A DNA stretch of 64,000 nucleotides from Umbilicaria muhlenbergii (taxonomy: Eukaryota > Ascomycota > Lecanoromycetes > Umbilicariales > Umbilicariaceae), in NCBI GenBank assembly GCA_000611775.1, contig KK106986.1, forward strand, positions 1,240,001-1,304,000. The letters run 5' to 3'. The stretch's first letter is position 1, and each line of letters begins with the position of its first letter. Shown here piece by piece: positions 34,225 to 55,732 of the stretch. Under the pieces are notes generated by a model. That model saw only the letters and a program-made list of their open reading frames with translations. It did not search any database and was not told the DNA's origin. The position numbers and the translations under genes were made by a program.

Positions 34225-34348
34225 CGACACCGGCAGGGTTCGAACCTGCGCTTCCGAAGAAAACAGATATCGGATTCCAGGATGCTGAGCAGATGCCCAA
34301 GATGCAGGAAATTCAAGTCTGTCGCCTTAACCACTCGGCCACAGTGTC
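34225..34348 (-). tRNA. tRNA-Ser(UGA) with a 43-nt intron
   Basis: Read on the minus strand, the 5' half GACACTGTGGCCGAGTGG opens a serine-type tRNA. The acceptor stem pairs GACACTG with CGGTGTC, with G as the discriminator. The anticodon arm is ACAGA-CTTGAAA-TCTGT with anticodon UGA. The long variable arm (TTTTCTTCGGAAGC) is typical of Ser. The T arm holds GGTTCGAACCC. An intron of about 43 nt (34311-34269) sits after position 37, the canonical site. A run of five T follows the 3' end as a Pol III terminator. The mature length is about 81 nt. Confidence 0.95.
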
Positions 34349-54102: not shown

Positions 54103-54643
54103 TATTGCTTTTGGGTACAGCGAGAGGTAGAGAGAGGGTTGGCAAGGGATTAGAGGGGCTTGAAGTAGAGGGATGGCGGGGTAAACTGTTTATTGGAATA
54201 GATTTTATAATAAGAACTTCCTTGGATTGGAGTGGGACAAACTAGCTCAGAATCCATTTCTTGCCTTTTACCAGAGATGGCCGTGGTTATGCCCAACGTG
54301 CTCCGTTAATCAATCTTTGGAAACACACTTCTGCCTTGAGCAGAGTTATTTTTTGCTTTTTGCAACTGAGATTAAATCATGTACTCTCTATAGTAGTTTT
54401 TGGAGCGGACTTATTACGACACGTTCGTGAGTTCGAGTCTGCAGGCTATCAAAAATCCGTGCAATTTCATAAAAATAAGCGAACCTACGTTGAGTGCATA
54501 ACCGCTTTCCGCTAAACAGGACCAAGAGGACCCCCAGGTGCACCAACACATCAAGTGGCGGTTTTGAGCAGAACCACATGGGGGATCCTCAGGAGCAGCA
54601 GACAAATAGCGAAAAGCACAATGACAATCAGTGAAGTCAAGGG
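54103..54643. other. Flank between HNT1 and the TRIM element
   Basis: 541 bp, AT-rich, with no supported gene. A TTCGAGTCT stretch near 54431 resembles a tRNA B box, but no tRNA can be folded around it. Confidence 0.4.
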
Positions 54644-54648
54644 TGTAG

Positions 54649-54745
54649 TGTTGTGATGTGAAACGGCTGTGGATTTTCTACGTGGGCAGCTCGCTACTTG
54701 TACCACTGACACTAGTCCTAATAGGTCATAGGGCGAATTCCAACA
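54649..54745 (-). repeat. 3' LTR of the TRIM element
   Basis: 97-bp terminal repeat, identical base for base to 55243-55339. Its outer end adjoins one copy of the TGTAG duplication. Confidence 0.93.
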
Positions 54746-55242
54746 CTCCCTCTCGAAAGAAAGATCCTATTAGACATGTGTGTCTCCTGTACGCGTAGCT
54801 CCCTCTGAAGTATCTCCCTCTGAATTGCAGCCTACTCAGCCCTTCTTAACCACCCAATCTGAATTGCAGCCTACTCAGCCTCTTCAAAACCACCCAAAAC
54901 CTCTCATACCGTAGGTGGAAATGGTGGAAAGAGTACTGTGTCTAGCCCTTTGATTCATGACTGTTCTCTTCCTTTCAGCTCTGTCACATCGCTTCTCCAC
55001 CTAACCTCTGGATCCTTGTCTCTGGGTTCTGGCCTCGTTGGCTCATTGGCTCATTGGCTCGTTGGCTTGTTGGCTCATCAGTGTGCTTCTGACTGTGACT
55101 TGTATCGCTATAGGAGGTGGTCAGATCATCTCTGAGCTTCTGTGATATACAACACAGCCTGCGTTCAGTGCTGTGAGGGAGCCGCCTCCAGGTATAGACA
55201 GCGTGTAGTAATAGAACTACTGCGCATACCGGGCTCATAACC

Positions 55243-55339
55243 TGTTGTGATGTGAAACGGCTGTGGATTTTCTACGTGGGCAGCTCGCTACTTGTACCAC
55301 TGACACTAGTCCTAATAGGTCATAGGGCGAATTCCAACA
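55243..55339 (-). repeat. 5' LTR of the TRIM element
   Basis: 97-bp terminal repeat identical to 54649-54745. The primer-binding site (55229-55242) lies directly inside it with no spacer. Confidence 0.93.
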
Positions 55340-55344
55340 TGTAG

Positions 55345-55732
55345 ATAATAAAGCGCAGTAGCTAGCGTCTGCGCACTTGATCCTCTATAAGGAGGACTTA
55401 TATTGGGGGCCTCCCTGTGTGAGAACCCCCTATCTCAAGGTGTATGGACAAACTAAATAGCAGTCTTCAGCTGGGATTTCAACAACCCAACTACGAAGAA
55501 AGATCTGAGGAAATATTGAACACAGGGATATAATTGGTCATAAATCTCTACAATGCTTGCTACAGGGATTCTCATATATCGCTTTGACCGTTGAATTGTT
55601 GAGGGTTACCCTATCAGAGGACTGCACTTAAGTTGACAGTGCGCCTGCCCCTGGATGTGCTGGATTTTGCATCTAGCTGTTCAACCGGAAGGGCTCCATC
55701 GGAGTGTATACAAGATGCTAGAAACCCATTTC
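55345..55732. other. Flank between the TRIM and the RSA3-like gene
   Basis: 388 bp with no recognised gene; probably the 3' flank of the RSA3-like gene. Confidence 0.4.

Follow-up and report, generated by a model that had tools for sequence, protein, structure and literature searches.

Two features of the element described in this work, Copia-related terminal-repeat retrotransposons in miniature (TRIMs) and priming from the anticodon loop of a transfer RNA, have already been published for fungi. Seven Copia TRIMs are described for Cochliobolus heterostrophus in the accessible part of PMC4112212, while the accessible sections of PMC10886601 describe 113 families of TRIM with tRNA-like long terminal repeats (LTRs), called Helenus, in rust fungi, and name Drosophila Copia and yeast Ty5 as elements primed from the anticodon loop. 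According to the portion of PMC8515867 at hand, the use of a short tRNA segment sets the genus Hemivirus apart from Pseudovirus within the Pseudoviridae. A further member is found in a 64,000-nucleotide stretch of the Umbilicaria muhlenbergii genome (C6:1240001-1304000, hereafter the window; the assembly comprises 34,788,950 bases, or 34.8 Mb, in 7 contigs). We interpret this 691-bp element, with a probability of about 0.9, as a Copia-type TRIM mobilised in trans. An earlier note on this DNA, made from the letters alone, had called such elements rarely reported in fungi, which is fair, but they are not exceptional there, judging from the parts of PMC4112212 and PMC10886601 cited above.

The anatomy of the element (Table 1) agrees with that of a TRIM, as the earlier note had proposed. 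It is bounded by two identical LTRs (97 of 97 bp) that start with TGTTG and finish with CAACA, and both flanks carry the same perfect 5-bp target site duplication (TSD); all this had been noticed before, and the reading of the sense strand as the minus strand is new. Directly 3' of the 5' LTR lies a primer binding site (PBS), and directly 5' of the 3' LTR lies a purine tract, which was called by its position; a PBS and a polypurine tract at the internal ends are typical of TRIMs. The total length is below the limit of 1000 bp given for TRIMs in the accessible text of PMC10886601. The element has no recognised coding capacity, and no mobilisation protein of its own was recognised: the longest stop-to-stop frames over the internal region (95 and 90 aa) do not match any Pfam family at E-values up to 1. 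The part of the internal region that includes the purine tract (54746..55134) contains tandem repeats with steps of 39, 15 and 8 nt. Over all its 14 nt the PBS is perfectly complementary to nt 26-39 of the initiator tRNA-Met (tRNA-iMet) of the same genome in its joined form, which bears out the 14-bp match seen previously; in an anchored chance test with 200,000 random plus-strand positions of the window, the longest tRNA match was 10 bases, attained at 5 positions.

Table 1. Coordinates of the element, of its relatives with the same LTR and of the split tRNA genes; positions without a contig label refer to the window
Feature	Position	Strand	Basis or remark
TSD left, TGTAG	54644..54648	.	direct reading
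Element, window copy	54649-55339	-	TSD TGTAG
LTR, 97 bp (3' LTR in element sense)	54649..54745	-	100% identity to partner; 6 LTR copies at 4 loci in genome
Polypurine tract GAGAGGGAG	54746..54754	-	short, by position
Internal region in common with 2265-bp copy	54746..55134	-	DNA alignment
94-nt leader, this copy only	55135..55228	-	no second DNA match in genome; absent from 2265-bp copy
PBS GGTTATGAGCCCGG, complement of tRNA-iMet nt 26-39	55229..55242	-	exact complementarity
LTR, 97 bp (5' LTR in element sense)	55243..55339	-	100% identity to partner
TSD right, TGTAG	55340..55344	.	direct reading
2265-bp copy	C2:785588-787852	minus-sense frame	TSD TAATC
Solo LTR	C2:195051-195147		TSD TCCGG
Solo LTR	C3:114486-114582		TSD AAGGA
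Initiator tRNA-Met gene, sole one found	C4:1007401-1007223	-	exact patterns; ARAGORN on joined exons
tRNA-Phe(gaa) gene	C3:3883136-3883258	+	ARAGORN on joined exons
tRNA-Phe(gaa) gene	C4:484550-484428	-	ARAGORN on joined exons

A whole-genome DNA search with the LTR (6 of 6 candidates scored; the repeat counts are lower bounds) revealed six copies at four loci, i.e. the window element and three other insertions. All four insertions possess perfect TSDs of 5 bp that differ from each other, which indicates separate integrations rather than segmental copies and supports the idea of a mobilised family put forward in the earlier note. Two of these insertions consist of a solo LTR, as recombination between LTRs commonly leaves behind, and the six LTR copies are nearly identical, with two single-base departures in all. 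By inspection, the solo LTR on C3 is apparently located at the 3' end of a reading frame, whose final residues it would replace. A duplication of the ordinary kind, in which the two 97-bp repeats arose without retrotransposition, found no support and is extremely improbable in view of the other loci with their own TSDs, the TG...CA ends, the PBS directed to the host tRNA-iMet and a relative that bears gag.

This relative, the 2265-bp copy on C2, contains one minus-sense frame with matches to Copia gag (PF14223, E-value 2.9e-7) and Pol_BBD (PF22936, E-value 5.7e-18) and a zinc knuckle (CX2CX4HX4C) that was seen by eye, the corresponding piece showing no Pfam match above the cut-off. A piece of the protease region is kept, RT (reverse transcriptase) and integrase are absent, and the stretch of the frame that was read is interrupted by 11 in-frame stops, namely a TAG and a TAA near the leader, which come first, followed by nine TGA; the copy is thus itself defective. 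Its alignment with window positions 54649-55134 shows 481 identical columns out of 502, with 5 substitutions and one 16-nt gap. The 94 nt that adjoin the PBS of the window copy are not present in the C2 copy, and the DNA search of the genome matched them nowhere else, so a simple internal deletion of the C2 copy was rejected as a sufficient origin. A stretch of 271 columns comprising the C2-type leader and the PBS recurs, 89% identical, close to the end of contig C1 (C1:2634-2904) and at C5:2479744-2480014, in relics without this LTR. The nearest relative of the protease region, at C1:9195449 (46% identity), was rejected as a partner, as none of the 55 RVT_2 matches is nearby and its LTR-like repeat is different.

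The PBS connects the window element with the Copia elements resident in the genome. The 14-mer has 58 exact sites (32 on the plus and 26 on the minus strand; the reversed-pattern control gave 0), one of which is the tRNA-iMet gene itself, leaving 57 others. At 19 of the 58 sites a same-strand match to RVT_2 follows about 1.6-5.0 kb downstream (limit: 7 kb); two sites share one match, and the pairings therefore represent 18 distinct matches out of 55 in the genome. The best RVT_2 match is found in an uninterrupted frame of 1505 aa, and the PBS at C3:348501 precedes this match by 4.35 kb. At the 12 sites for which the preceding sequence was read, it is CAACA in 10 cases and CAATA in 2, despite widely differing LTRs. 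Because the PBS is shared with sites that precede RVT_2, the window element is taken to have the same entry point as the resident Copia elements, in agreement with the half-tRNA-iMet priming suggested before. As for the proposed dependence on an autonomous Copia partner, the link to Copia is upheld by this common PBS and by the gag and Pol_BBD domains of the C2 copy; the large copy is however defective, and no autonomous element with the same LTR was detected in the DNA searches of the genome, although a helper need not share the LTR.

Several observations weigh against the interpretation as a Copia-type TRIM mobilised in trans. Only a single copy of the 691-bp form was found, although the LTR is present at four loci, so that a repeated mobilisation of precisely this form would be hypothetical; the whole-genome DNA searches revealed the three further insertions, but no autonomous element carrying the LTR; the purine tract is short; at 39 of the 58 PBS sites, including the tRNA gene, RVT_2 is not matched within 7 kb; and two identical LTRs of 97 bp make a weak clock. 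The first of these observations, together with the close match of the 3' internal part to the 2265-bp copy, would also fit a dead remnant, i.e. a longer Copia element whose interior was removed by recombination after insertion at this site, with the result that the 691-bp form itself never moved. We regard this as unlikely, since both LTRs, the PBS and the purine tract are intact and the C2 form does not yield the element by deletion alone, the 94 nt by the PBS being absent there and unmatched elsewhere in the genome; deletion from another parent, now lost, may nonetheless account for it.

The state of the Copia copies in this genome bears on the question whether the family is still served by a helper. 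In 29 of the 30 RT loci examined the matched stretch contains stops, and in these 29 decayed copies 156 TGA codons are found versus 32 TAA or TAG; of the TGA codons, 62 coincide with a tryptophan and 59 with an arginine of the uninterrupted frame. In 49 alignments among 23 of the 30 RVT_2 loci, with the GC-richer copy taken as the older one, C-to-T changes affected 3228 of 8066 CpG (.40), 4358 of 13201 CpC (.33), 1432 of 14905 CpA (.10) and 1487 of 14183 CpT (.10) sites. Classical repeat-induced point mutation is biased towards CpA, and the decay observed here, which favours CpG and CpC, is unlike that. The excess of TGA is most simply explained by these changes, because C-to-T at CpG and CpC turns CGA and TGG into TGA; the use of TGA as a sense codon in the Copia frames, which this excess (9 of the 11 stops in the C2 copy) had brought up, was rejected in favour of mutation as the simpler reading. 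The heavily mutated RT copies, the stops in the C2 copy and the lack of an autonomous element with the LTR in the genome DNA searches would be expected if the autonomous parent had disappeared or been inactivated by mutation and the family were no longer mobilised by any element. Such an extinction is a realistic possibility, though we lean against it: the LTRs at the four loci are nearly identical, and one Copia element persists that shares the PBS and whose RT-containing frame is uninterrupted.

Our preferred interpretation thus remains a TRIM that a Copia helper mobilises, and from what is known of LTR retrotransposons the following course of events can be envisaged. The minus-strand RNA would begin in the 5' LTR and be packed in particles made of Gag from a helper Copia element; reverse transcription would be primed at GGTTATGAGCCCGG by an annealed fragment of tRNA-iMet that ends at nt 39, the purine tract would serve as the start of plus-strand synthesis, and the Copia integrase would insert the DNA, giving rise to the 5-bp duplication. 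In Drosophila, copia is primed by a tRNA-iMet fragment of 39 nt, so the 3' end expected for the fragment is the same as here. The ancestor of the family may have been a gag-pol Copia element, whose remnants would now be the defective 2265-bp copy and the two diverged relics, and the 691-bp form, which has a 94-nt leader of its own, could have arisen by a further deletion or by template switching. The young age proposed in the earlier note is weakly suggested: no differences in 97 bp give a 95% upper bound of 3.0%, which limits the LTR divergence only to below ~3%. The near identity of the six LTR copies at four loci also points toward a young age.

Further short non-autonomous forms probably accompany the window element in this genome. 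Tandem short LTR-PBS units without RT are present at C1:2944480-2945400 (step of 676 bp; PBS at C1:2944635 and 2945311) and at C1:6666280-6666680 (step of 188 bp; PBS at C1:6666432 and 6666620); the units of both loci and two further loci have the leader after the PBS in common, while most of their LTRs are different. At C6:135560-140180 there is a head-to-head Copia structure with inverted arms of 1.47 kb, 99% complementary to each other, around a centre of 1.67 kb, each arm carrying an LTR and an inward PBS. The region C2:2768950-2773500, of which the ends only were compared, has the same ends and agrees with C6 in the 15 bases of left flank that were compared, and the two may be duplicates of one locus.

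The gene for the presumed primer has an unexpected structure. The pattern GGGCTCATAACCC occurs once in the genome, and a looser exact pattern for the 3' half of tRNA-iMet led to the same place and to two hits that are not tRNA-like by their letters; exact patterns would miss a variant tRNA-iMet gene. A B-box pattern, GGTTCGANNC, was uninformative (739 hits vs 1102 in the control). The gene consists of AGCAACATGGC, a 55-nt intron (GTAAGT...CAG), GCAGCGGAAGC, a 52-nt intron (GTGAGT...CTAAC...CAG) and the remaining part. Both introns are of the GT-AG type, mRNA-like and away from the usual position of tRNA introns, the first one following nt 11, inside the A box. The joined exons (72 nt) are called as tRNA-Met(cat) by ARAGORN, which makes no call for the unspliced gene, with or without the intron options, or when only the second intron is retained.

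Both tRNA-Phe genes that were found are split in a similar manner. An exact pattern for the anticodon and T arms of tRNA-Phe had 7 hits, of which two are these genes and the other 5 are not tRNA-Phe-like by their letters. Each gene has a 50-nt intron after nt 24 that starts with GTGAGT or GTAAGT and ends with CAG. The exons of the two genes differ at 1 of 73 positions (exon 1 is identical) and the introns at 8 of 50, a difference that selection on the exons would lead one to expect. When 6261 GT...AG excisions were made in 300 random 200-nt pieces of the window, ARAGORN reported no tRNA. The branch-point match is good in one intron (CTAAC) and weaker in the others (CTAAA, CTTAT), and mRNA-intron-like stretches of the window (16 hits of 48-78 nt; reversed control: 5) are of similar length to the tRNA introns. 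Runs of T, as in terminators of RNA polymerase III (Pol III), are found 3' of all three split tRNA genes.

Not all results for the C3 tRNA-Phe gene agree with this split structure. Three of its 21 possible excisions lead to a tRNA call (two Phe and one Thr), which means that ARAGORN alone does not fix the exact intron joint; with the intron option, the unspliced gene is reported as a tRNA-Met(cat) whose intron has 31 nt; in Rfam, a 75-nt part of it that includes intron bases matches tRNA (41.3 bits); and the joined form has one mismatched acceptor pair. We favour the split structure because the unspliced sister gene on C4 has no match in Rfam and exon 1 is identical in both. An Rfam search for tRNAs (63 of 1258 candidates scored) returned at least 19 matches, 18 of them outside the window. 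ARAGORN, whose intron option looks in the anticodon loop only, names 16 of these 18 listed matches, 12 of the 16 with an anticodon-loop intron; it leaves two without a name, the C3 tRNA-Phe gene and, at C1:10594996, a Met(CAT)-like sequence in which no 5' acceptor strand was found. A tRNA-Ser(TGA) gene with an ordinary 43-nt anticodon-loop intron is present in the window itself (34225-34348, minus strand).

From the exon and intron sequences we infer that the introns of the tRNA-iMet and tRNA-Phe genes are removed to give clean tRNAs. We consider it quite probable that the primer of this element, and of the Copia elements of this fungus with the same PBS, is the 5' half of a tRNA-iMet whose sole detected gene is split in that half by two spliceosomal introns, and that essential nuclear tRNAs, with both tRNA-Phe genes found similarly split, would require the spliceosome in addition to the tRNA splicing endonuclease. 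Nucleomorphs and a red alga possess non-canonical tRNA introns. A review (PMC4090602) links such introns to the splicing endonuclease and describes the removal of the nucleomorph ones as not understood; its accessible text contains no word beginning with "spliceosom-". An mRNA-type intron is described in the U6 RNA of fission yeast, itself a Pol III transcript, in the accessible part of PMC10484740. The portions of PMC3978253 and PMC6461891 at hand do not report spliceosomal introns in tRNA genes, and a literature search leaving out most subscription journals found no paper on them, which is no proof of novelty.

A U5 spliceosomal RNA gene (window 54227-54347, plus strand; Rfam, 69.6 bits) is located 301 bp from the element. 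As the stretches around the other three insertions gave no small-RNA match in Rfam, this neighbourhood does not form a pattern. Small-RNA genes were rejected as insertion targets, the sole match among the 8 sources searched with Rfam being the C3 tRNA-Phe locus.

The element represents a small and clean non-autonomous Copia family, additional to those on record for fungi, and many Copia-type insertions of the genome (57 primer sites) appear to be tied to one tRNA primer, apparently derived from a single host gene with mRNA-type introns, which was unexpected. If true, the spliceosomal processing of nuclear tRNAs would represent a new dependency between two RNA-processing systems that are usually separate, would account for the failure of a tRNA finder to detect these genes, and would imply that the primer supply of a tRNA-primed transposon passes through the spliceosome.

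Among known systems, the TR-GAG elements of plants keep gag and lack RT and integrase, as does the C2 relative, whose gag frame is however broken by in-frame stops and which retains a piece of the protease region. Members of Hemivirus share the kind of priming (PMC8515867, in the part available), but the window element, having neither gag nor pol, cannot belong to that genus. The Helenus elements are defined by tRNA-derived LTR sequence (PMC10886601, accessible sections), which was not detected here: window positions 54600-55400 gave no tRNA match up to an E-value of 10, and identity with Helenus was rejected. Like the window element, they are TRIMs with 5-bp TSDs in fungi and an inferred mobilisation by Copia, and the dominant fungal type has a PBS complementary to the anticodon loop of tRNA-iMet (same sections). 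The seven TRIMs of C. heterostrophus are related to a named family, Copia-1_CH, whereas here no autonomous element was found to share the LTR; according to the accessible part of PMC4112212 they resemble the window element as non-autonomous Copia-related LTR elements accompanied by solo LTRs in an ascomycete, with LTRs that start with TG and end with CA, and with 5-bp target sites in most Copia families of that species.
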